Below are positions 18,370-42,224 of a stretch of DNA of 42,576 bases, piece by piece. Source of the DNA: a virus. Every line of letters begins with the position of its first letter. Within the stretch, counting starts at the first letter, position 1. The stretch is from the IMG/VR virus record IMGVR_UViG_3300049442_000285, positions 1 through 42,576 of that record, one strand, 5' to 3'. The position numbers and the translations under genes are program-made. The notes under the pieces were generated by a model, which worked only from the letters and a program-made list of their open reading frames with translations, did no database searches and was not told the origin of the DNA.

Positions 18370-18445
18370 CGCGGGGTGGAGCAACTGGTAGCTCGGGGCG
18401 CTCATAACGCCCAGGTTGCAGGTTCGAGTCCTGCCCCCGCAACCA
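18370..18445 (+). tRNA. tRNA-fMet (anticodon CAT), initiator type, CCA encoded
   Basis: A full cloverleaf is visible. Acceptor strands 18370-18376 and 18435-18441; D arm 18379-18394; anticodon stem 18396-18400/18108-type partner at 18408-18412 with loop CTCATAA (18401-18407); T stem GCAGG/CCTGC with loop TTCGAGT; A73 and CCA at 18442-18445. Initiator marks are the unpaired C1 x A72 end and the A11:T24 pair (18380:18393). The usual three G:C pairs at 29-31/39-41 read G, C, G instead of G, G, G. It sits in the early operon, about 1.1 kb from the integrase end, so it could be functional or part of an attachment site. Confidence 0.9.
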
Positions 18446-28759: not shown

Positions 28760-29716
28760 GTGACAGAGACACAGGCATTGACGGTGGCGCACGATCGACG
28801 CGGCGAACTCACGGTGGCCGATCTGCGCCGGCAGGACGACCTGCTGAAGCAGCTCATGAGCGAGGTGCTGCAGCGCGGGCACCACTTCGGCGAAGTGCCG
28901 GGCACCAAGGACGAGCAGACCGGCAAAGCCAGGCTCACGCTGCTGAAGCCGGGGGCCGAGAAGCTCTGCCAGCTCTTCCGCCTGGCGCCGACGTTCAAGG
29001 TCGAGCGCCTCGACATGCCGGATGCGCATCGCGAGATCGTCTGCACTTGCACGCTCACGCACATCGGCACGGGCGCGGTGCACGCCGTCGGCCTCGGCAG
29101 CTGCTCGACCATGGAGTCGAAGTACCGCTGGCGCAATTCCTCTCGCGCGTGCCCCGAGTGCGACGCCGAGGCGATCCGCAAGAGCAAGAACGGCCCAGGG
29201 TTCTATTGCTGGAAGAAGATCGGCGGTTGCGGCGAGCAGTTCGAAGAGGGCGATCGCCGGATCATCGACCAGAAGATCGGCAAGGTGCCGAACCAGGACA
29301 TCGCCGACGTCTACAACACGGTCCTGAAGATGGCCGCGAAGCGCGCCGCCGTCGCCGCGACGTTGATCGCGACTGGCGCCGGCGACCTGTTCGTGCTGCC
29401 CGAGAACGACGCTGAGGACGAGGGTGGCGACGAGCCCGAGCCCGAGGCGAAGCCGCGAAAGGGCGGCAAGCGGCAGGAGCAGCCCGAGCAGCATGAGCCG
29501 CCGCCGCCGCTCACCGAGAAGGAGCAGCTCATCATCGACTGCTCGAAGGCCTGCAGCGCGCTCGGCGGCGACGCGAAGCTGATTGGCGAGGTGCTGGCCG
29601 AGGCGGGCTTGCAGCCTGGTCTGAGGTTCAAGGATCGCAATGAGGAGGACCTGCGCAAGGCGAAAGCCGCGCTGCAGGCAGAGGTCGAGCTACGAAAGGG
29701 AGGGACGCAGAAGTGA
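28760..29716 (+). CDS. Putative ssDNA-annealing/recombination protein with zinc ribbon
   Basis: 318 residues; GTG 28760 with AAGGAGG (28747-28753). Key parts: Leu-Lys-Pro-Gly-Ala-Glu-Lys-Leu-Cys, a block Ser-Cys-Ser-Thr-Met-Glu-Ser-Lys-Tyr-Arg-Trp, a zinc ribbon Cys-Pro-Glu-Cys...Cys-Trp-Lys-Lys-Ile-Gly-Gly-Cys-Gly (about 134-158), and Tyr-Asn-Thr-Val-Leu-Lys-Met-Ala-Ala-Lys-Arg-Ala, similar to the Lys-Arg-Ala helix of Rad52/Erf-like proteins. This protein type is common in phages and conjugative elements. Residues 230-270 are acidic and disordered. A C-terminal helical region follows. Function is inferred. Confidence 0.55.
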   Translation: MTETQALTVAHDRRGELTVADLRRQDDLLKQLMSEVLQRGHHFGEVPGTKDEQTGKARLTLLKPGAEKLCQLFRLAPTFKVERLDMPDAHREIVCTCTLTHIGTGAVHAVGLGSCSTMESKYRWRNSSRACPECDAEAIRKSKNGPGFYCWKKIGGCGEQFEEGDRRIIDQKIGKVPNQDIADVYNTVLKMAAKRAAVAATLIATGAGDLFVLPENDAEDEGGDEPEPEAKPRKGGKRQEQPEQHEPPPPLTEKEQLIIDCSKACSALGGDAKLIGEVLAEAGLQPGLRFKDRNEEDLRKAKAALQAEVELRKGGTQK

Positions 29717-31704
29717 AGACGATTCGTTTCCTGGGAGCGCTGTTCGCGCTCGTTCTCGTGTTGCCCGCGCAGGTCGTGCGCGCGTGCAACTACGGCGGTT
29801 CGCTGTTCTATGGCTGGCACCGCTGCACGACCGATTCGCTGCCGCCGCACTACCGAGGCATGGCCGACGGCGTCGAGTTCGCCGCGGGCAAGGCGGTCGG
29901 CTTGATGGGCTACGTGTGCGATGTGCGACTCAAGCTCGCGCCAGGCACCGGCATCAAGTTCGACCTCGGCCATGGCATCGCGATCGATGGAGCGAGCCCG
30001 AAAGTTGCCACGGACACCGCCGGCATGCCTGTGATCGGCGGCGCGAAGGTGCAGCTGCTCGACGCGGTCGTCGACGGCGCGGGCACCGACTTCCACTGGC
30101 GCGGCCGGCCGTGGGCCGATGCGACGATGTTCTGTGCGGACATCTGGGCGACGGTCTACCCGGGCCAGCCCTGGGCAGTCGGCGAGCTCGTGGTCACCGC
30201 TTCGAACCCATTGGTGCCCGACCTGGTCGCAGCGGTCCCTCCTGGCGGGATGCAGCTCGGCTGGTCGAACGGCATCGCGATCGTCGACGGCCTGACGTTC
30301 GGCGCGCAGCTGCTGCCCGCGGGCGAGACGTTCGGCGATGGGCAGAGCAGAGCCTGGCGCTTCGTATTCGGCTGGCTCGATCGCAGCACGCTCGCCGACG
30401 TGCAGTCGTCGCTGCTCGAATCGGCCGCCGCGATCGCCGTCAATGGGATCAGCAAGCCGGGCCTGCTCGGCGCGTTCGCTCCGGTGCCGCGCGGCTTCGA
30501 TGCCATTGCATGGGGCCATGAGCGCCTGCCGAAAGCTCGCGCTGCGCTGCTGACGTGGGAGATCCTGCGCGACTCGCGCGGCGGCAGCGTGGGCGATACG
30601 AAGCGCGCCGGCGACACGGGCGACCACGAAGACTGGCCAGGGTTCAACAAAGGCGTCGAGGAGCAGGCCAGCCCGCAGCCTGGCACCTACTGGATCGACT
30701 ACTACGCCGGGATGCGGCAGGTGAGCAGGCCCTGCCACGACCTCGAGGCCGACGGCTCGCTGCTCGACCTGAGCAAGCACCCCGATCTGTCGCTCTGGGT
30801 CTCGCGCCCGAACGTCGCCGACACCGCGGTCAAGGATTCACTCGGCAAGCCGCGGCCGCTGGTGCTCGGCGCCGAAACCCATGGGTGGGAAGGCCCGGAC
30901 ACCGAGCACTGGCTCATCGGCCGGTTGTCGCAGGCCCTGCAATGGACCGGCTCGCCCGCGCTGCAGTGGGAACTGCAGCACGAGGCGCGCATCTTCATGC
31001 TGACCGAGACCCTCGATCCGCGCTTCGCCACGACCTCGATCAGCGACGCGTCGCGCGCGTGGGGCTTCTGGATGACGGTCGCGATCTGGTGCTGGGAGCT
31101 GCTCGAGGACCGCGAGCTCGCCGTTGCGGTGCGACAGCGGGCGCTCGACCGCGCGCACCTGCTCATCGCGCGTTGGTCCTCAGTGCCATCGCCGGCCGCC
31201 TGGTTCGACGTGCGGCGCGGCGAGCTCAACGTCGGCGGCGGCTTCGTGCAGGTGACGATGCCCTATCAGCAGAACCTGCCGGCCGCGACCTGGACGATTG
31301 CCGGCGAGCTGTTCGGCGACCAGGCGTTGATCGACGTCGCGCAGCGCATGGCGCGCCCGTGCGTTGACCTCGACTGGACTGTGCAGGGCGGCGTCCTGGT
31401 GGCATGGGACTGGCTCGGCTTCAACAGTGATGGCACGCCGCTGCCACTTCCCTACATCGAAGGCCAGGGCGCACACAGGAGCGGATTCTTCGATGCGAAC
31501 TGGTGCGTCGCAGCCCCGTGGGCGGTGCTGCGCTACCACTCAGACGACGCTCGCAGCAAGGCGATCCTGGCCCAGATAGGAGCGTTGCCAACTGCGCCAC
31601 CGAACCAGCCAGTGCGCACTAACGACTGGCTCTTCCCTATGGGCACGACAAGAGCGCAGGCCGTGGCTGTCGCGATCCCGGTCCCCATTGCACCGGTGAA
31701 GTGA
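29713..31704 (+). CDS. Large secreted protein of unknown function (663 aa)
   Basis: GTG 29713 overlaps the previous stop; GGGAGGGA lies eight bases upstream. Residues 1-24 are a Sec signal peptide (Met-Lys-Thr-Ile-Arg, hydrophobic core, Val-Val-Arg-Ala), with Cys25 next; the -2 Arg makes a lipobox unlikely. The mature part is very Trp rich. Residues about 310-560 are helical with conserved-looking Glu-Asp-Trp-Pro-Gly, His-Gly-Trp-Glu-Gly-Pro and Trp-Glu-Leu-Gln-His-Glu-Ala, like alpha/alpha-toroid glycoside-active enzymes. No known catalytic motif can be named. It could act in the periplasm, on the surface, or as a virion-linked lyase. Confidence 0.6.
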   Translation: MKTIRFLGALFALVLVLPAQVVRACNYGGSLFYGWHRCTTDSLPPHYRGMADGVEFAAGKAVGLMGYVCDVRLKLAPGTGIKFDLGHGIAIDGASPKVATDTAGMPVIGGAKVQLLDAVVDGAGTDFHWRGRPWADATMFCADIWATVYPGQPWAVGELVVTASNPLVPDLVAAVPPGGMQLGWSNGIAIVDGLTFGAQLLPAGETFGDGQSRAWRFVFGWLDRSTLADVQSSLLESAAAIAVNGISKPGLLGAFAPVPRGFDAIAWGHERLPKARAALLTWEILRDSRGGSVGDTKRAGDTGDHEDWPGFNKGVEEQASPQPGTYWIDYYAGMRQVSRPCHDLEADGSLLDLSKHPDLSLWVSRPNVADTAVKDSLGKPRPLVLGAETHGWEGPDTEHWLIGRLSQALQWTGSPALQWELQHEARIFMLTETLDPRFATTSISDASRAWGFWMTVAIWCWELLEDRELAVAVRQRALDRAHLLIARWSSVPSPAAWFDVRRGELNVGGGFVQVTMPYQQNLPAATWTIAGELFGDQALIDVAQRMARPCVDLDWTVQGGVLVAWDWLGFNSDGTPLPLPYIEGQGAHRSGFFDANWCVAAPWAVLRYHSDDARSKAILAQIGALPTAPPNQPVRTNDWLFPMGTTRAQAVAVAIPVPIAPVK

Positions 31705-31845: not shown

Positions 31846-32382
31846 ATGGCCGTGCCCAAGAACGTTCTGCCGCAGGACCAGCTGGCGGCGCTGCTGGGCA
31901 TCGCGGAGTCGACCCTGAAGGTGGCGATCACCCAGGGCTGTCCCCTGCCTCGCAATCGCAAGCAGCTGCAGGAGTGGCCCGCTCGCTGGCACGCCTGGCG
32001 TCGCTCGACCATGGGGGCCGCCGGGCGGCCGCCGAACCCTGTCGACAAGGACCTGCGCGAGATCGATCGGCAGATCCGCGAGGTGCTGCTGCTCGAGCGG
32101 ACGATCCGCGTCGAACGCCTGCAGGGCGAACTGATCAGCCGCACCGACGTCGACGATCAACGCTCGCGGCAGGTCGCGGCCATCCGGTCCAGGCTCTTCA
32201 TGATCGCGCGGCGGATGCGCCGCGCGCTGATCAATGCCACCGAGCAGGAGATCGAGGACAGGCTCACCGAGGAGTTCCGCGCCATCTGCGCGGACTTCGC
32301 CGCGGGTCTCGAGGTGCCGGTTGACGGCAACGTCGCGGCGGCCCCGGCCGCGGCCAAACAGCCCGCTGCCGACGTGGACTGA
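31846..32382 (+). CDS. Terminase small subunit
   Basis: 178 residues from ATG 31846; no clear ribosome site. Residues 8-40 (Leu-Pro-Gln-Asp-Gln-Leu-Ala-Ala-Leu-Leu-Gly-Ile, Thr-Leu-Lys-Val-Ala-Ile) form the DNA-binding helix-turn-helix expected of Nu1-type subunits. Residues 65-150 are long Arg/Glu/Leu helices for oligomerisation. It precedes the large terminase, overlapping it. It recognises the packaging site, probably in the region just upstream. Confidence 0.75.
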   Translation: MAVPKNVLPQDQLAALLGIAESTLKVAITQGCPLPRNRKQLQEWPARWHAWRRSTMGAAGRPPNPVDKDLREIDRQIREVLLLERTIRVERLQGELISRTDVDDQRSRQVAAIRSRLFMIARRMRRALINATEQEIEDRLTEEFRAICADFAAGLEVPVDGNVAAAPAAAKQPAADVD

Positions 32383-34255
32383 TCGACAGCGGGCCTCCTG
32401 GCTGCTTCCTCCTGAGCAGTCGGCTTCCGATTGGTGCGACGCGCACCGTTGGTTGCCGGCGACGTCGGCCGACTCTGGCGCGAAGTGGCGCACCGCATGG
32501 ACGCCCTACCTGCGCGAGCCGCTAGACAACCTGATTCGGCGCTGGGTTCGGCAGACCACGTTCGTCGGCAGCACGCAGATCGGCAAGACGGAGCTGCTCA
32601 ACAACGCGCTCGCGTGGATGGTGGCGCACGAGCCGAGCGCGATCGCCTACGTCTGCGCGCGTGCCAAGGACTGTCGCACGACCATGCGGCACCGAGTGCT
32701 GCCGATGCTGCGCGCGTCGGACGTCCTGCGCGCCGAGATCACGGATCGCGCGCGCGACCTGAAGCATGAGGAGGTGCACCTCCGGCGCTCGACCATCTTC
32801 TTCCGCGCCGCTGAGTCGCCGGCCGATCTTGCGTCGCTGTCCTGTCGCTACCTGCTGGCCGACGAGACGGAGCGGTGGCCCGAATGGTCAGGACGCGAGT
32901 CGTCGCCCTTCTCGCTGCTGCAGCAGCGCACGATCACGTTCGACGACTACCACCTGTTCCTGGTCTCGACGCCGAAGTTCCGGCACGGCGTGATCCAGCG
33001 CCAGTTCGAACAAGGCGACCAGCGACGCTACCACGTGCCGTGCCAGCTCTGCGGCCGCTATCAGGTCCTGCGCTGGTCGCAGGTGCAATGGGATCGGGTC
33101 AAGCTCACGACGCCGCGCGAGATCGAACGCAGCAGAGAGGTCTGGCTCGAGTGCGAGCGCTGCAAGGGGAAGATCGTCGATCAGCACAAGCCGGCCATGC
33201 TCGCCGCCGGTGTCTGGGTGCCGGGCGGCCAGACGGTCGAGGAGTGGCGCCGCCGCGGCGCGCTCGAGGACCGGGAGCCGCATCGCTCTTACCACCTCTG
33301 GGCCGCCTATTCGCCCTGGGTGCAGTTCTGGAGACTCGCGGCTGAGTTCACGCGAACGCGCGACGTGCCGGCCGACTTCATGGGCTTCGTGAACCTTTGG
33401 CTCGCTGAGTGCTGGGTCGATCGCGTTGAGGACACGCCGCAGGAGGCGGTCGAGGCCTGCGTCGACGAGCAGTTGAGCCAGGGCCCGGAGAAGGTTCCCG
33501 AGTTCGTCAAGGTCGTCTGCGCCGCGGCCGACGTGCAGAAGGACCGGATCATCTATGGCGTCGCCGGCTGGGGCGATGGCGAGGAGTGCGCGGTGCTGGC
33601 GCTCGGCGAGGTGGCGACGTTCGAGGACCTCGACGCCGCTGTGTTCGGCTCTTCGTGGGGGAGCAAGCACTTTCAGATCCGCTGCATGGTGGTCGACAGC
33701 CGCCACCGCCGAGACGAGGTGATCGAGTTCGTGCGCAAGCGGCGGCCTGTCGCGCGCGCGATCGCCGGCGTCGAGCGCCAAGCGCCGATCCCATTCGGAA
33801 CCATCAAGATCGAGCGTCACCCGCGCACTGGGCAGCCGCTCGAGCACAGCCTGACCTGCTGGACGGTGAACGTCGGGTTCTTCAAGGACCTGGTGGCGGC
33901 GCGGATCGCCGCGAGCGCCGCCGATCCGGAGAAGCGCGAGGGTCGGCTGCATCTGCCGAAGGATCTCGATCCGCGGTTGCTGCTGCAGTTGTCGGCTGAG
34001 CACAAGGTCCGCGAGCGCTCGGGCAATCGCGAGCGCGCCCGCTGGGTGCTGAAGCCAGGCCGCGGCCGCAACGACGCCTGGGACGTGTTGATCTACCTGC
34101 ATGCTGCGGCGCGCATGGCGCGCGTCGATCTGCTGCGCGGCCGCGGGCCGGGCCCCGGACCGGCCCCCGGCGAGGGCGGCGCGCCGCCGCCGCGCCGCCC
34201 CGGGCCGCCGCGCCGGCAGCGCAGCATCCTGCCGATCCCGCGGCTGTCTCGCTGA
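32321..34255 (+). CDS. Terminase large subunit, lambda gpA family
   Basis: 644 residues from TTG 32321, chosen because GAGG lies six bases upstream; the only ATG (32234) adds 29 implausible residues, and CTG 32402 is another option. The N-terminal block Trp-Arg-Thr-Ala-Trp-Thr-Pro-Tyr-Leu-Arg-Glu is typical of gpA. Walker A is Gly-Ser-Thr-Gln-Ile-Gly-Lys89-Thr-Glu; Walker B is Leu-Leu-Ala-Asp181-Glu182. A Cys pair set (Cys-Gln-Leu-Cys-Gly...Cys-Glu-Arg-Cys) may bind zinc. The C-terminal half holds the nuclease. The end is Gly/Pro/Arg rich. It drives DNA packaging and cuts cos. Confidence 0.88.
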   Translation: MTATSRRPRPRPNSPLPTWTDRQRASWLLPPEQSASDWCDAHRWLPATSADSGAKWRTAWTPYLREPLDNLIRRWVRQTTFVGSTQIGKTELLNNALAWMVAHEPSAIAYVCARAKDCRTTMRHRVLPMLRASDVLRAEITDRARDLKHEEVHLRRSTIFFRAAESPADLASLSCRYLLADETERWPEWSGRESSPFSLLQQRTITFDDYHLFLVSTPKFRHGVIQRQFEQGDQRRYHVPCQLCGRYQVLRWSQVQWDRVKLTTPREIERSREVWLECERCKGKIVDQHKPAMLAAGVWVPGGQTVEEWRRRGALEDREPHRSYHLWAAYSPWVQFWRLAAEFTRTRDVPADFMGFVNLWLAECWVDRVEDTPQEAVEACVDEQLSQGPEKVPEFVKVVCAAADVQKDRIIYGVAGWGDGEECAVLALGEVATFEDLDAAVFGSSWGSKHFQIRCMVVDSRHRRDEVIEFVRKRRPVARAIAGVERQAPIPFGTIKIERHPRTGQPLEHSLTCWTVNVGFFKDLVAARIAASAADPEKREGRLHLPKDLDPRLLLQLSAEHKVRERSGNRERARWVLKPGRGRNDAWDVLIYLHAAARMARVDLLRGRGPGPGPAPGEGGAPPPRRPGPPRRQRSILPIPRLSR

Positions 34256-34261
34256 GCCCCC

Positions 34262-34678
34262 GTGCGCCGCGACCTCGAGCGCGACGACGAGCTGCTGCCG
34301 GTGGTTCCGTACGTCCCGTTCCGTTGTCCAATCTGCGGCGCTGGCAAGCCCGATCACAAGGGTCGCGGCCGGCGGCCAGGCCTGCGCTATCACCAATGCC
34401 GCTGCGGAGCCGCCTATCACAGCCAGGAGCTGCGGCCGTCCGAGATCACCGCCTGGTCCGGCCGCGAACATGAGCGCCCGCCCGTGGTGCCGTTCGTGCC
34501 GTTCCTGTGCCCGCGCTGCGCGGCGAACCGGCCTTTCACCTATGGCGTGAAGGGCTGCTTGCGCTACCACCGCTGCCAGGGCTGCAGCATCCGCTATCGC
34601 AGCTTCGAGGTCGCGCGCGAGGACATGCACCGCTGGCGCGCTGCGTCCAGCGGTGCGGACGCCGCGGCGTTGCCATGA
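34262..34678 (+). CDS. Tandem zinc-ribbon protein
   Basis: 138 residues from GTG 34262, six bases after the terminase stop. Two copies of one zinc ribbon are visible: Cys22/Cys25 with Cys46/Cys48, and Cys83/Cys86 with Cys105/Cys108. Each copy starts Val-Val-Pro-(Tyr/Phe)-Val-Pro-Phe and ends Leu-Arg-Tyr-His-x-Cys...Tyr, then Ser-x-Glu. The first copy has a Cys-x-Cys end, the second Cys-x2-Cys. Position between terminase and portal regions suggests DNA binding in packaging, or a transcription factor; neither is proven. Confidence 0.68.
   Translation: MRRDLERDDELLPVVPYVPFRCPICGAGKPDHKGRGRRPGLRYHQCRCGAAYHSQELRPSEITAWSGREHERPPVVPFVPFLCPRCAANRPFTYGVKGCLRYHRCQGCSIRYRSFEVAREDMHRWRAASSGADAAALP
34644..34660. 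repeat. 17-bp repeat, copy 1
   Basis: CGTCCAGCGGTGCGGAC occurs here, at the end of the zinc-ribbon gene, and again at 39944-39960. It can fold as a small hairpin (CGTCC/GGACG in this copy). The two copies flank the esterase-gpW, portal and 39600 genes. Confidence 0.5.
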
Positions 34679-34706: not shown

Positions 34707-37700
34707 ATGCCCGTCGCGCGCAAGGCGGTCGCGTTCATCGGCCCGTCGACGCCGACGGGGCCGACGCTCCCGAACGGCGCCGCGCTGACGACGCTGGCGC
34801 CAGGAGGCCTTGGCACCGACCCTGCGCGCGTGCCGGCGCCGGGCTGGGGCACGTTCGGTTGGGTGCGCGTGCTGCACAGCGCGCCGACCGGCGGTGGCTT
34901 CCTGGTGAACGGCCTGGTCACGGGCGGCACCAGCGGCGCGAAGGGGCGAATCGTCCAGCTCGGCACGGGCTTCTCGGTGATGGAGCGGGTCCTTGTCTCG
35001 CCCGAGTTCACGATCGGCGAGACCCTGACGCAGGACAAGAACGGCAGCACCGCGATCGTCGGCGATGGCAAGGAGTCGTCGACCATCGACGCCTCTGGCG
35101 TGATGGTGCAGACCAACACGCAGCTGCCCGACGAGCTGATGACCCCCTGGGTCAACGCGACCTACCCGAGCGACGCGTCGGCGAACCTGTGGTGGGAGCC
35201 AGGCGCCAAGCTCGCCGCGGCGCTGCCGGTCGCCAGCGTCGCGCTGTGGGCTGGCCAGATCCGCCGCATCCAGAATGCACCGAGCGCGCCGACGGCGACC
35301 GCGCTCGTGGTCGGCACGATCGGCGGTGGCTCGCTGGCGGTCGCCGATGTCACCGGCACGTGGACGAACGGCGCGTCCGTCTATCCGTTCGGCGGCGGCT
35401 CGCTGCTCACGACCGTCAACGGGAACTTCACCGACACCGTCGCCGGCGAGATCACGCCCTACAGCTTCCGGCCGGCGCTCGGCGGACTCGCCAGCAAGTG
35501 GGACCTGTTGCCGTTCGGAAGCGACAGCTGCGGCCGCGTCGGCGCGATCGGCCTGGAACCGCAGTTCATCCGCAAGGCGTTCACCGAGTGGGGCGCGGCG
35601 TCGTTCTTCATCAAGCACGACAGCAACGCGTTCCTCGGCACGAACGGCATTGGCGGCCTGGTCTACGCGCGGATCAACTGCACCGGAACCTTCCCGGGCA
35701 CCTGGGTGCTCGGCGAGACGCTGTCTGGCACAGGCGGCTGGACCGGCAAGCTGGTGGCTTACGACGTCGCCAACAAGTTCCTCTATGTGACGCGCTCGCG
35801 CGGTGTGCTGTCGGTCGGCGGCACTGTGTCCGGGGCCGTGGCATCGACCACGGCGCTCGACGTCCCCCTGAGTTTCCAGAAGAACTGCAAGTTCTGGTCG
35901 ACGTGGCTTGCCGAAATCACCAAGGCGCTGGCGAAGGCCTCGGGCGACACCTTCGACTGGCGCGCCGTGGTCAACGCGACGTGGCTCGGCGACATCCTGG
36001 TGCCGGGGATCTCGGCGACCTCGCTTGGGATGGACTTCCAGGACTGCATCAGCGAGATCACGCAGTGGCTGCAGGACGTTCGCAGCCAGCTCGGTGCCGC
36101 GGGCTTGATCGTGCCGGCGATCGTGCATAAGACCACCTGTGGGAACGACATCTCGCCCAACCATTCGGCGATCCTGCGGCTCGCCTATCAGCAGGTGGCG
36201 CGACTGGACTCCGCGTTCCGGCCCGTCTATGGCGACGAGTTCGCGTCGATGGTGCTGGCGACCGGCTATCAGGCCGAGAACCTGAACTCACTGTTCTTCG
36301 AGCCGATCGCGTTGCCTTTCTTGGGCAGGAAGGCCTGGGACACGTTCAAGGGTGCGATCCTCGATGCGATCCAGAGCGACCTCGATGACTGTGCGCTAGT
36401 GTTCGGCACCGGTCAGTCGCAGCTGGCAGGATCCAACTCCTACCTCATGGGCATTCTCGACGATGACCCTGAGCTGTGGAAGATGGGCGGCATCGCGCAG
36501 GGTGAACCAGGCCTCGGTTCGGCGCACATCAGCACCCTCGATGACCGGATCAAGATCTACAACGCCCAGGTCGGCGCCTGGCAGACGATGTCGATCTTCA
36601 GCAACTGCTCGAGCTTCGGCAATCAGTTCGCCAACACGTGGGGGCTGAACGTGCTGTTGGCGCAGCGGCTGCTGTCGCGGCTCGGGCGCATCTATCTGAT
36701 CTGGTGCCCGTTCCTCACCTCGAGCATGCAGGCGGCCGCGCGCGGCCAGGCTGGAACGTGGGACGACATCACCCGGCTGTCGGTCGCGACGTCGGTCACG
36801 GTGCAGTTGGTCACGGTGACCGGGCTCGCCGCGTCGCGCTATGTCGCGTCGAGTGGAACACCGTTCGCGGCGTATCAGGTCGGCGAGAACTGCGAGGTCC
36901 GGAACGCGCGCCTGGCGGCCAACAACACGCCGCCGGACACGGCGAACAACCCGCGCCGCATCCTCGCGGTGAACGGCGGCGGTGCCTCGATCGACCTCGA
37001 GGGCAGCGGCGGCGTGGTCGACGCGACGCCGACCGTGACCACGCTGGTGATGGGCCCAGTCGACCTGAAGCGCATCGCCGCGCAGGTGGTGCGCGACGCG
37101 TTGACGCGCCTGGTGACGCAGGAAGGACGCATTCCGCGCCGCGTGCTGGGAGTCACCTGGCAGGGCGAGGGCGACCTCGACTTCTCGACCACCTACCAGG
37201 CCGCGCTCGAGCGCCACATCGACTGGAAGCGGCAGATCTTCGGCCACCGCGTGGGCAACGAGCTGGAGTGCCCCGAGGTCGTGATCATGCTCAGCGACAA
37301 GACGCCGCTGGGCACCGACCAGGAGGTCGCCAACATCCGCAACGCGCAGCTGGCGGTTGGCAGTTCGCGGCCGCGGGTGTCGGTGGTGGAGACCAAGGAC
37401 CTGCCGCAGCGCACCGAGCAGGGCGTGTGGCCGCGGTCCACGCGAGTGGACAACGGTGTGCATTTCACGATGCTGGCCGACGTCACCGTTGCCGGTCGCG
37501 TCGACAGCAAGCTCGATGCCTGGTCGGACCTGTTCCCACCCCACCCTCCTGACGCCTCGTTCGCCACGGGCGCGGCGGACGGGGCAGGCGAAAGCCTGGT
37601 GGGAGGCGGCGGGGGAGACACGCCGCAGGCGCCGACTGCCGAGGAGACGGTCGGCGGCGGCGGCGTCGATCCAGTGAGCGGCGGCACTTCTGCCACCACT

Positions 37701-37886
37701 GCGGACAGTCTGGTCGACGCGGTCGAGGGGGCGATGGCCGACGGCCTCGACGTCGCCAGCTACATCGTGAACGGCCGCTCGGTGACCATGCGGTCGCTGC
37801 GCGAGCTGATCGAGCTCCACAAGTACATGCAGGCCGAGGCGCGCCGCGCCAACGGCATTCGCAGGACGCGTGTGAGGTTCGGATGA
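34707..37886 (+). CDS. SGNH/sialate-O-acetylesterase-like protein with gpW-like C-terminus
   Basis: 1059 residues, one open frame. Residues 40-115 and 300-380 have Gly-x-Thr-Ser-Gly-Ala type beta repeats. An esterase domain shows Gly-Gln-Ser571 (block I), Trp818-Gln-Gly-Glu-Gly-Asp (block III) and Asn916-Gly-Val-His919-Phe-Thr (block V) of the SASA/SGNH fold; Asp normally at His-3 is Asn, with Asp915 one place earlier. Residues 400-530 may be a second degenerate SGNH unit. After a Gly/Thr linker, residues 1012-1059 (Asn-Gly-Arg-Ser-Val-Thr...Leu-Arg-Glu-Leu-Ile) match gpW head-tail joining proteins. It lies where lambda W lies, and its stop overlaps the portal start. Confidence 0.72.
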   Translation: MPVARKAVAFIGPSTPTGPTLPNGAALTTLAPGGLGTDPARVPAPGWGTFGWVRVLHSAPTGGGFLVNGLVTGGTSGAKGRIVQLGTGFSVMERVLVSPEFTIGETLTQDKNGSTAIVGDGKESSTIDASGVMVQTNTQLPDELMTPWVNATYPSDASANLWWEPGAKLAAALPVASVALWAGQIRRIQNAPSAPTATALVVGTIGGGSLAVADVTGTWTNGASVYPFGGGSLLTTVNGNFTDTVAGEITPYSFRPALGGLASKWDLLPFGSDSCGRVGAIGLEPQFIRKAFTEWGAASFFIKHDSNAFLGTNGIGGLVYARINCTGTFPGTWVLGETLSGTGGWTGKLVAYDVANKFLYVTRSRGVLSVGGTVSGAVASTTALDVPLSFQKNCKFWSTWLAEITKALAKASGDTFDWRAVVNATWLGDILVPGISATSLGMDFQDCISEITQWLQDVRSQLGAAGLIVPAIVHKTTCGNDISPNHSAILRLAYQQVARLDSAFRPVYGDEFASMVLATGYQAENLNSLFFEPIALPFLGRKAWDTFKGAILDAIQSDLDDCALVFGTGQSQLAGSNSYLMGILDDDPELWKMGGIAQGEPGLGSAHISTLDDRIKIYNAQVGAWQTMSIFSNCSSFGNQFANTWGLNVLLAQRLLSRLGRIYLIWCPFLTSSMQAAARGQAGTWDDITRLSVATSVTVQLVTVTGLAASRYVASSGTPFAAYQVGENCEVRNARLAANNTPPDTANNPRRILAVNGGGASIDLEGSGGVVDATPTVTTLVMGPVDLKRIAAQVVRDALTRLVTQEGRIPRRVLGVTWQGEGDLDFSTTYQAALERHIDWKRQIFGHRVGNELECPEVVIMLSDKTPLGTDQEVANIRNAQLAVGSSRPRVSVVETKDLPQRTEQGVWPRSTRVDNGVHFTMLADVTVAGRVDSKLDAWSDLFPPHPPDASFATGAADGAGESLVGGGGGDTPQAPTAEETVGGGGVDPVSGGTSATTADSLVDAVEGAMADGLDVASYIVNGRSVTMRSLRELIELHKYMQAEARRANGIRRTRVRFG
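37734..37886 (+). CDS. Possible separate gpW-like product from internal start
   Basis: ATG 37734 is in frame in the esterase gene (Met1010) and has GAGGGGG at 37725-37731, two to three bases closer than ideal. It would give a 50-residue gpW-like protein, near the size of lambda gpW (68). Internal initiation would supply free connector subunits without the esterase. The evidence is the purine run and the domain boundary only. Confidence 0.4.
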   Translation: MADGLDVASYIVNGRSVTMRSLRELIELHKYMQAEARRANGIRRTRVRFG

Positions 37887-39595
37887 AGCCGCCACCACCG
37901 AAAGTTCCCAAGCCAGGCGGCGTCATCCGCGCGATTGCGCGCGTGCTCGACGCCGCGGTTGAGGCCGCGGCGCCTGGCTGGGCTCTCCGCCGCGCGCAGT
38001 CGCGGTCGCAGTTGCGGCTCGGCCGTGCGCGCGCCGACGTGCGGCTCGCCTATGACGCCGCGAAACGTGACCGCACCCGGCAGCGAATGATCGCCGGCAG
38101 CGCCGACAGCGACTTGCTGCCCGACCTGCGCGCGCTGCGCATCAAGTCTCGGGCATTGGTGCGCGACGACGCGCACGCCTCGGCCGCGGTGAAGACACTC
38201 GTCGACAACATCGTCGGCCGCGGCATGCGCCCGCAGCCGGCGATCACGCCCGAGCGCACGGGGCTGTCGCAGGAGGAGTGCGACGCGTGGAATGAAGCCG
38301 CGGCGCAGCTCTGGCAGCAGCACGCCTCCAGCAACCTGGACGCGACCGAGCACGGCACGTTCGACGACCTGACGCGGCTCGTCTGCCGCACGCAGATCGT
38401 CGACGGCGAGGTGATCGCGCACAGGGTGGTGGTCGGCGTGTCGCCGACGCGCCCTCTGATGGGCAGCTGGGAGCTGATCGACCCCGACCGTCTGCAGGAT
38501 CCGCCCACCGCCTGGGGCATGAACGTGCGCGGCGGCGTCGAGCTCGGCGATCGCGGCGAGCCCATTGCCTACTGGGTGACGCCCTACCATCAGGACGACC
38601 TCGGCCTGCCGCACGCCTGGCCGTTGTCCGTCAACAACCTGCCGGTGCGGATCGACAAGTACCAGGGCTCCTGGCGGAACGTGATCCATCACTTCCGCCG
38701 TGATCGTGTCGCCGTCTCGCGCGGCGCCCCGATGCTGACGCCGGCGCTGCCGCTGTTCGAACACCTGCACCACTACCTCGATTCCGAGCTGATCGCGGCC
38801 CGTGCCAACAGCAACGTGGTGATGACGATCAAGCGGCCGCTCGACCCGCGCGACCCGGACGTCGCGCCCGAACTGTCGCCGCGGGACGATGGCACCGGCG
38901 AGCTGCATTACATCGAGACGCTCGAGCCCGGCACCGTCGAGTACTTGAACGAGGGCGAGGAGATGACGCCCTTCATGCCGACGAGGCCCGGCGTCACGTT
39001 CGAGCCGTTCGTGCTGCGGATTTTGAAGGCGATTTTCAGCAGCGGCGGCCTCAGCTACGAGGTCGCGGTGAAGGACTTCGCCAACATGAACTACAGCAGC
39101 GCGCGTGCGGCGCTGCTGGAGATCTGGCGCGGCTGCGAAGTCGAGCAGGACAACCTGGTGGCCGGCTGGTGCCAGCCCGTCTATGAGGCGGCGATCATCG
39201 AGGGCGTTGCCGCGGGTCTGCTTCCCGTGTTCCCCGCGATGTTGACCGACATGTCGCCGTTCCTCGCCTGCCTGTGGATCCGGCCGCCGCGAGGCTGGGT
39301 CGACCCGACGAAGGAAGTCGAGGCCGCGGCTCTGGCGATTGCCAACAACCTGTCGACGCCCGATGCCGAGGCCGCGCGAGCCGGCATGTCCTACCGGCAG
39401 ATCCTGCGGGAACGCGGCCGCGCCGAGCGTGAGCGCATCGACGTCGAGCAGCAGTACGACCTTCCGCCCGACATCCTGCGGCCGCCGGCTCCTGCGCAGC
39501 CGCCAATCGGCGGCAGCGTGCCGCAGGGCGGTGGTGGCAAACCGCCGGACGAACAAGCACCCAATCCGCCGGCGAAAGTCGGTGCCAAGGAGTGA
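37883..39595 (+). CDS. Portal protein, lambda gpB family
   Basis: 570 residues from ATG 37883, overlapping the previous stop. The N-terminal 80 residues are basic. Diagnostic parts: Arg-Ala-Leu-Val-Arg-Asp-Asp, Asp-Asn-Ile-Val-Gly-Arg-Gly-Met-Arg-Pro-Gln-Pro, Asp-Pro-Asp-Arg-Leu, His-His-Phe, and Tyr-Ser-Ser-Ala-Arg-Ala-Ala-Leu-Leu-Glu, all typical of lambda-type portals. The C-terminal 60 residues are Pro/Gly rich. It forms the dodecameric entry ring for DNA. It follows the gpW-like domain as in lambda. Confidence 0.88.
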   Translation: MKPPPPKVPKPGGVIRAIARVLDAAVEAAAPGWALRRAQSRSQLRLGRARADVRLAYDAAKRDRTRQRMIAGSADSDLLPDLRALRIKSRALVRDDAHASAAVKTLVDNIVGRGMRPQPAITPERTGLSQEECDAWNEAAAQLWQQHASSNLDATEHGTFDDLTRLVCRTQIVDGEVIAHRVVVGVSPTRPLMGSWELIDPDRLQDPPTAWGMNVRGGVELGDRGEPIAYWVTPYHQDDLGLPHAWPLSVNNLPVRIDKYQGSWRNVIHHFRRDRVAVSRGAPMLTPALPLFEHLHHYLDSELIAARANSNVVMTIKRPLDPRDPDVAPELSPRDDGTGELHYIETLEPGTVEYLNEGEEMTPFMPTRPGVTFEPFVLRILKAIFSSGGLSYEVAVKDFANMNYSSARAALLEIWRGCEVEQDNLVAGWCQPVYEAAIIEGVAAGLLPVFPAMLTDMSPFLACLWIRPPRGWVDPTKEVEAAALAIANNLSTPDAEAARAGMSYRQILRERGRAERERIDVEQQYDLPPDILRPPAPAQPPIGGSVPQGGGGKPPDEQAPNPPAKVGAKE

Positions 39596-40007: not shown

Positions 40008-42224
40008 ATGAAACCGCCGCAGCTGCAGGAGGCGACGAAACGCCAGGTGCCTGGGGCCGCGTGCGAGTTCGCGCTCACCGACGTGCAGCTGGCCGACGGC
40101 CCCGCCGGCGAGGGCGGCCCGGGCAGGTTCGAGATGACCGCCTACACGGGCGAGCCGATCCTCGGCCATTGGTACTGGGGAAACCTCGGCATCGACCTGT
40201 CCGGCATCCAGCACAAGGCGCGCGTGCCGATCCTCGCCGACCACCGCACCGACATGCGCGTCGGCCACGGCATGATCTCGGCGAAGACGCGAGCCGCGGG
40301 CGGCCTGAAGCTGTCCGGCGAGCTGTTGTCGAGCTCTCCGCACGCCAAGGAGATCCGCGCGCACAGCCGCGAGGGTTTCCCGTTCGAGGCCTCGGTGCGC
40401 GTGATGCCGACGCACATCGAAGAGGTGCGCGCCGGGGAGACGGTCGACGTCAACGGCGTGCCGCTCCACGGCCCGGGCCACGTGTTCCGCAAGAGCAATC
40501 TGCGCGAGGTGTCCTTCGTGGTCCTCGGCGCAGACCACCGGACTTCCGCCACCGCGCTCGGGCAGGACGACCCGCCGAGCTTCGAGGCAACGATCCAGAG
40601 GGCAGAGATGAAGCCGAAGACGAACAACGGCGCCAGCAACGGCGCTTCCCCCGCGCCGGCCGAGCCGCGCGAGATCCAGGCCGACGCGCCGGAGGCGGTC
40701 GCGGATGGCGCCGTGGCGCTGGCCGAGCACCGCGATGCGCCAGCACCCGCACGCGTGCCCGCGACGCCCGTCGATCCCGCGGCGCAGCTGCGCGACGAGC
40801 GCGCGCGCGCGGACGCGATCCTGGCGGCTGCGGCGCCCGAGCAGCAGGGCCTGGCGCGCGAGCTCGTCACCCAGGGGATCGGCCTCGAGCAAGCCCAGGG
40901 CCGTCTGCAGGAGGACCTGCGCACGCGGTTCTCGGAACTGCGCCGGCAGATGGCGGTGAGCGCCGACCGGCCTCTCGGCCAGCGTGCGCCGGCCTCGCCG
41001 GCCCCGCCGATCGGCGGCGAGCCCGGTGCGCCGGCATTCGGCGGCGGCGACGATCCGATCTCGACGATGCTGGGCGAGGCCTCGGGTCGGTTCGACAGCG
41101 ACCGCAAGCTGCGTCAGCAGTGGCACAGCCGCGAGGCCTTCCTGCTCGACGTGCTGTCGCGCGAGCCCGGCAGCGATCGCTTCAGCGAGCGGTTCCAGGA
41201 TCCGGCGGTGCTGCTGGCATCGTCCAAGGCGATCCGCCTGCTGATGCAGGACCCGCGCGAGCAAGCGCGCGAGGTTCTGTTGGCGGCGTCCACCACGGCC
41301 ACGCCGCTCACGCTGCGCAACGTCACCGGCAGCTATTACCTGAAGCTCGCGCAGCAGCTGGGCGCCGGCTGGTATCGCACGGCGGCGAGCACGTTCACCA
41401 CCGATCAGCCGGTCGAGACCTACCCCTGGCTCGGCCAGGCGCCGAACCTGCGCAAGTGGGAGGGCGAGCGCAGCGTGCAGGAGCTCCGTTCGGACGTCGT
41501 GACCCTGATCAACGACGACTACGAGGGCACGATCACGTTCCGCGGCCCGGATCTGCGGCGTGACAAGACCGGTCAGATGATCGCGCGCGCCGGCGAGCTG
41601 GCGCAACGAGTCGCGCAGTTCCCCGAGCGCCTGATCAGCAACCTGATCCTGGCGAACGGCAACGCGTACGACGGCGCGGCGTTCTTCGCCGACACGCGGA
41701 GCGTCGGCGCCTCGGGCAACATCGACAACAACCTGACGACCGGCGACAACCTGGCCGGCGGTTCGGCACCGACCACGGCGCAGCAGAGCAACAACCTGCT
41801 CATCGGCCTGTCGCGCCTCATGGGCTTCTTGGACGACCAGGGAGAGCCCCTCAATGAGGGCGCGCGCGAGTTCCTGGCCATGGTCCCGGCGTCGCTCTAC
41901 GCCGCGACGGTGGCGGCCGTGAATGCGGCGTTCACGTCGGCCTCGGCGACCAACCCGCTGTCCGAGCTGGTCAACAGCGGCATGCGGTTCCGCGTCGTGC
42001 TGAACGCGCGCCTCGGCACTGGCGCCAACGACACCTGGTACTTGATGCGGACGGACGCCGGCATCCTGCCGTTCATCGTGCAGGAGGAGCTGACGATGCC
42101 GATCAGCCTCGACCAGGGATCCGAGTACTACGCCATGAACAACAAGGCCATCTTCGGCCACGGCTGGGCGGGCGCCGCCGGTTACGGGCGCCCCGAGCTC
42201 ATCTGCAAGCTGAAGAACAGCTGA
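40008..42224 (+). CDS. Fused prohead protease, scaffold and major capsid protein
   Basis: 738 residues in one frame. Residues 1-185 match U35/S78-type prohead proteases: Ala-Asp-His79-Arg and Phe-Glu-Ala-Ser129-Val are the likely catalytic His and Ser. Residues 200-345 are a disordered and helical scaffold-like stretch (Ala/Glu/Arg rich). Residues 350-738 resemble Mu gpT-type major capsid proteins, ending Gly-Tyr-Gly-Arg-Pro-Glu-Leu. ATG 40608 (Met201) has AGAGGG five bases upstream, so a scaffold-capsid product without protease is possible. The protease would cut the scaffold from the capsid domain. Confidence 0.8.
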   Translation: MKPPQLQEATKRQVPGAACEFALTDVQLADGPAGEGGPGRFEMTAYTGEPILGHWYWGNLGIDLSGIQHKARVPILADHRTDMRVGHGMISAKTRAAGGLKLSGELLSSSPHAKEIRAHSREGFPFEASVRVMPTHIEEVRAGETVDVNGVPLHGPGHVFRKSNLREVSFVVLGADHRTSATALGQDDPPSFEATIQRAEMKPKTNNGASNGASPAPAEPREIQADAPEAVADGAVALAEHRDAPAPARVPATPVDPAAQLRDERARADAILAAAAPEQQGLARELVTQGIGLEQAQGRLQEDLRTRFSELRRQMAVSADRPLGQRAPASPAPPIGGEPGAPAFGGGDDPISTMLGEASGRFDSDRKLRQQWHSREAFLLDVLSREPGSDRFSERFQDPAVLLASSKAIRLLMQDPREQAREVLLAASTTATPLTLRNVTGSYYLKLAQQLGAGWYRTAASTFTTDQPVETYPWLGQAPNLRKWEGERSVQELRSDVVTLINDDYEGTITFRGPDLRRDKTGQMIARAGELAQRVAQFPERLISNLILANGNAYDGAAFFADTRSVGASGNIDNNLTTGDNLAGGSAPTTAQQSNNLLIGLSRLMGFLDDQGEPLNEGAREFLAMVPASLYAATVAAVNAAFTSASATNPLSELVNSGMRFRVVLNARLGTGANDTWYLMRTDAGILPFIVQEELTMPISLDQGSEYYAMNNKAIFGHGWAGAAGYGRPELICKLKNS

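Follow-up and report, generated by a model that had tools for sequence, protein, structure and literature searches.

The gene at positions 34707..37886 of the window (the whole stretch of viral DNA analysed here, 42,576 nt) encodes a single protein of 1059 residues that ends in a gpW-type head-tail adaptor domain and that carries, ahead of this domain, a likely member of the SASA/SGNH hydrolase family. The fusion is real and unusual, and it is the sole case in the collections searched. On balance we lean, though not strongly, toward the reading that the protein is a head-tail adaptor of the gpW/Ad1 type, extended at its N-terminus by about 990 residues that would project from the neck as external arms. 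The fusion gene and its features, the terminase genes, and the portal gene all lie on the + strand.

The gene neighborhood of the fusion is that of a phage head module. Upstream are the genes for the terminase small subunit (31846..32382; phrog_57, E=5e-12) and the gpA-type terminase large subunit, TerL (32234..34255; PF05876, E=7e-61; PF20454, E=6e-44). Directly downstream is the gene for a 570-aa lambda-family portal protein (37883..39595; PF05136, E=2.8e-81), whose ATG is overlapped by the TGA stop of the fusion gene as ATGA, as in lambda W/B. The original prediction had placed the gene between terminase and portal, exactly where W lies in lambda; the position was confirmed, except that one 138-aa ORF (34262-34678) intervenes after TerL. 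This ORF encodes two cysteine-rich, zinc-ribbon-like repeats and shows weak similarity (E=0.008) to the Lar family of restriction-alleviation proteins. The terminase genes are closely preceded by a 663-aa orphan (29713-31704), which starts with what looks like a signal peptide and matches nothing in Pfam, PHROG, or NCBIfam. Also in the window are a tRNA-Met (CAT) gene (18370-18445) and a 738-aa ORF (40008-42224) in which a head maturation protease and a Mu gpT-like major capsid protein are seemingly joined, a second fused structural gene in the same phage.

The C-terminus of the fusion, residues 997-1059 (37695..37883), is by homology a gpW-type head-tail adaptor domain. Two PHROG families of head-tail adaptors, phrog_118 (E=3.4e-5) and phrog_2545 (E=1.2e-4), recognized residues 997-1058, and the isolated C-terminal end matched the NCBIfam model phage_HTJ at E=2e-5, a score below the curated cut-off of that model. 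A home-made gpW profile, built from relatives, gave the 75 C-terminal residues 18.7 bits, whereas none of 2000 shuffles exceeded 8.2, and the fusion was the top gpW candidate among all six-frame ORFs of the window. The segment aligned with lambda W and with the gpW proteins of other phages (maximum identity of 35%, to L023), and the alignment spanned a predicted layout of helix, hairpin (SYIVNGRSVT), helix, and C-arm (RRTRVRFG), the last of these matching the relatives. A gpW-like end of 50 residues had been proposed; the kinship with gpW was upheld, but the domain comprises some 63-70 residues, because a segment of 50 would lack the first helix. An AlphaFold2 single-sequence model of residues 540-1059 placed a helix-strand-strand-helix arrangement at the gpW position with a pLDDT of only ∼41-59, and single-sequence models of both protein halves had mean pLDDT values of 32 and 33. 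Since structure models at a pLDDT of ∼32 are unusable, the gpW and SGNH fold assignments rest on profiles.

Twelve copies of gpW form a ring beneath the portal in lambda, where the C-arm of gpW pairs with the wing of the portal (PMC10721106). The fusion shares with this adaptor (gpW/Ad1 type; PDB 1hyw and 8k38) the C-terminal domain, the place before the portal, the ATGA overlap, and the C-arm. It differs in that lambda gpW is a free-standing protein of 68 aa, whereas the gpW domain of the fusion ends a protein of 1059 aa, which exceeds the usual gpW-type size of ∼70-180 aa (a range that is usual, not strictly defining). The adaptor of siphophage R4C is present in 12 copies and consists of an N-terminal Ig-like attachment domain (residues 1-106), which lies at the periphery, a long flexible loop, a tube domain, and a C-terminal hook (PMC10276861). 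A gpW profile weakly matched the R4C adaptor (PDB 8gtd, 178 aa) at residues 120-176 (E=0.0024). Like the fusion, this protein combines an extra N-terminal domain, a flexible linker or loop, and an adaptor domain in one chain; unlike the fusion, it carries an Ig-like domain of ∼106 aa rather than ∼990 residues that include an SGNH-type domain. The adaptor of RcGTA (g6), likened here by description, has a domain layout similar to that of R4C and contacts the capsid (PMC7296036). The expectation that gpW proteins are normally about 70 residues long and lack an enzyme held for all ∼180 relatives surveyed (see below), but N-terminal domains on gpW-type adaptors are already known from R4C. The fusion is therefore less foreign than at first sight; what is new is the enormous, enzyme-like extension.

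The main rival to an arm-bearing adaptor is that the full-length protein is made, but that the gpW of the virion is a separate small product, generated by internal initiation or by proteolysis in the linker. The SGNH part would then have no role or would work at another site, for instance after release or on the tail. Small gpW proteins are used by all relatives, the linker is of low complexity, and an in-frame GTG (V990; 37674..37676) is a potential internal start that would yield a complete, canonical 70-aa gpW. However, SD pairing at this GTG (−5.0, the 25% quantile of background) is near background. A strong, well-placed SD-like sequence, GAGGGGGCG, does precede an in-frame ATG (M1010; 37734..37736), with a duplex value of −10.9 versus a background 5% quantile of −8.0, but the product of this start would lose helix 1 of gpW. 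Moreover, R4C shows that a gpW-type adaptor tolerates an N-terminal domain. A separate gpW product therefore appears unlikely, although it has enough in its favor to be taken seriously.

The region preceding the adaptor domain was compared with the SASA/SGNH hydrolases. Residues 545-942 (36339..37532), delimited by hhalign and by block alignment, likely belong to this family as a divergent domain. When aligned by hhalign with a deeper SASA profile made from 28 SASA proteins from bacterial genomes, the segment gave P=1.6e-5, a probability of 79%, and a score of 42.4; nine other proteins of the same phage scored ≤17.3, and 100 shuffles of an insert-removed version reached 21.6. Residues 545-942 were also the top match to a SASA profile among all six-frame ORFs of the window (14.3 bits, with the next at 4.7). 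The SGNH/SASA blocks of the original prediction were thereby recovered at the residues it had named, albeit in a segment (residues 545-942) that no Pfam or NCBIfam model matches. Ser571 (36417-36419), in the GTGQSQ of block I, falls on the family GQS; the QGExD motif of block III (Gln819-Gly820-Glu821-x-Asp823, residues 819-823; 37161-37175) falls on the family QGE; Ala880-Gln881 falls on the family AQ; and His919 (37461-37463), in block V, falls on the family catalytic His. A gap in the SASA alignment marks an insertion at residues 690-785 (36774..37061), which looks beta-rich; it follows the strand of block II and precedes the helix that comes before the QGE block.

Catalytic competence of this domain, and with it esterase activity, is uncertain because two family features are altered. 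The oxyanion glycine of block II is absent, with CPFLTSSMQ standing where relatives show GGS, GGT, or SGS, and block V reads D-N-G-V-H, so that the Asp is at position −4 relative to His919 and not at the usual position of about −3.

The N-terminal region, residues 1-544 (34707..36338), is an orphan that matched no Pfam or NCBIfam family. Beta-repeat-like modules were placed by eye at about residues 64-124, 197-256, and 322-385. By tblastn, residues 65-124 weakly resembled VrlC/virion proteins of cyanophages (E=7e-3 at best), and residues 200-335 weakly matched the fimbrial adhesin 6h2l (E=7e-4). Residues 431-506 could be aligned, in register, to the part of SASA that contains QGE (P=0.02), although 1 of 100 shuffles scored higher; it is possible that the C-terminal part of the region represents a second, degenerate SASA/SGNH-like copy.

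The altered blocks also bear on a less probable explanation, namely that the arm descends from an SGNH domain that has lost its activity and is now a structural module for attachment or decoration, which holds the neck to the capsid or does no more than bind glycan, in either case without catalysis. The attachment domains of R4C and RcGTA, which contact the capsid, are thought to be structural (PMC10276861 and PMC7296036), and the loss of the block II Gly, the displaced Asp, and the weak resemblance of residues 65-124 to cyanophage virion proteins are all in keeping with such a module. Nevertheless, Ser571, QGExD, and His919 are all retained and correctly ordered, as would not be required of a dead domain, and we consider this explanation rather unlikely. 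Less probable still, and in our view quite doubtful, is that residues 545-942 are not SGNH at all and that the motif matches arose by chance. The TWQGExD string is found in unrelated proteins too, curated families are silent on the segment, and an earlier ad hoc profile of seven SASA sequences scored it no better than shuffles by hmmsearch. With the deeper profile, however, the score was about twice that of the best control, the segment ranked first among the ORFs of the window, and the family blocks aligned in order.

The ORF listing confirmed the predicted frame of 1059 residues, from its ATG start to its TGA stop, at exactly 34707-37886. When codon usage was learned from the remaining large genes of the window, the fusion frame ranked best in 35/35 segments of 90 nt. 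These segments included the linker, residues 943-996 (37533..37694), a Gly/Ala/Thr/Pro-rich sequence that is probably flexible and across which both other frames contain stops. Because the fusion frame was best in every segment, no frameshift joins two genes. Another IMG/VR contig (L002) agrees with the fusion gene at every position and differs from the window in only eight mismatches, all at the very end of L002; this support is only partly independent, because L002 may derive from related reads. The codon-frame check mattered because an apparent fusion can arise by frameshift: in one relative (L143:3653-5869), TerL is read into gpW in one frame, and the C-terminus of TerL looks out of frame, probably owing to a frameshift inside TerL or a sequencing error in that MAG, as judged by eye from the translation. 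Although L143 looks like exactly such an artifact, the in-frame codon usage over the whole junction, the stops in the other two frames, and the identical second contig make it highly improbable that assembly or sequencing joined two genes here.

When the whole protein or either of its halves was searched against phages, plasmids, IMG/VR, and GTDB genomes, only the identical contig L002 was recovered as a homologue, and hence there is no evidence from conservation for selection on the fusion. Caulobacter phage matches (best E=0.02) were judged to be due to chance, as the targets were nucleotidyltransferase/Nudix genes. A degenerate DNA pattern for TWQGExD found 89 stretches in IMG/VR; among the 80 examined, a recognizable relative of the domain was present only in the identical contig.

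The ∼180 gpW relatives surveyed were small genes, none with an enzyme, and no other giant fusion was seen. At loci obtained with a portal alignment, ∼157 gpW genes adjoined the portal gene, and all were small barring a few upstream-extended open frames, which apparently reflect read-through or frameshift. A further sample, 398 genomes of one phylum, added gpW genes of 66-179 aa and five longer frames with weak scores (L318, L320, L321, L322, and L323). Two of these were rejected as long gpW proteins, since the match lies inside what appear by eye to be HlyD-type secretion adaptors (L318 and L321); one has a gpW-like end with an open frame upstream (L320); and two are weak phrog_118 matches in open frames of 474 and 438 aa (L322 and L323, respectively). 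In a class-level sample, frames found by another gpW alignment were no longer than 213 aa. The long gpW ORFs of L006 and L022 were set aside, as they look like upstream read-through. In L317 (1486-2022, minus strand), a 179-aa gpW has a beta-rich-looking N-terminal domain that looks genuine and resembles the layout of the R4C adaptor. In L019 (4724-6574), a 616-aa ORF lies between gpW and the portal gene; it is beta-helix-like by eye, with a possible signal sequence, and is another candidate surface-active protein at the same insertion place, here as a separate gene.

Phage glycan enzymes are usually found on tail fibers or spikes. SGNH receptor-binding proteins of phages include proven esterases and deacetylases, one of which deacetylates lipopolysaccharide (PMC13123978). 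G7C gp63.1 and the receptor-binding proteins of Klebsiella prophages, likened here by description, share with the fusion an SGNH-type domain in a phage structural protein and a proposed role in glycan deacetylation; they differ in being tail fibers or spikes, whereas the domain of the fusion is joined to a neck adaptor. Glycan-active or glycan-binding proteins at the neck are also known, examples being the gp12 neck appendages of phi29 (PMC9863714) and neck passage structures that carry CBMs (PMC6669499). In contrast to the fusion, phi29 gp12 and the lactococcal neck passage structure are separate proteins attached to the collar or neck, with no fusion to an adaptor.

These comparisons suggest how an arm-bearing adaptor might work. 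Twelve gpW domains would come together in a ring below the portal, onto which their C-arms would dock. The N-terminal extension, running from the orphan beta-repeat-like region through the SASA/SGNH domain to the Gly-rich flexible linker, would project outside the neck in the manner of the Ig-like attachment domains of R4C, displaying about twelve copies of the enzyme-like domain. Because phage SGNH receptor-binding proteins are esterases and because glycan enzymes and binding modules exist at phage necks, the arms may bind and deacetylate host glycan. Like whiskers on the neck, they would attach to polysaccharide on the host surface and, with a working active site, strip it of O-acetyl groups. 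We infer the ring assembly, the outward placement, the surface-glycan substrate, and the esterase activity. The O-acetyl esterase at the neck that was first envisaged is a reasonable proposal. The domains, the synteny, and the one-frame fusion behind it have held up, whereas activity is uncertain and the location in the virion is deduced only from the gpW domain. Twelve arms of ∼108 kDa are, in addition, a large load for a siphophage neck and count against arms of this kind. The fullest version of the proposal, in which one translation product forms an adaptor ring with ∼12 active polysaccharide O-acetylesterase arms, such that the neck and not the tail tip processes glycan, is put forward as a tentative possibility that we do not favor outright.

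If an adaptor with such arms is indeed what this phage encodes, then the adaptor N-terminus would be a general site at which the virion neck can gain functions, and an enzyme would be displayed at a fixed copy number beside the DNA gate. The fusion also raises the question of whether the N-terminal domains of adaptors, considered structural in R4C and RcGTA, can have a role in adsorption.
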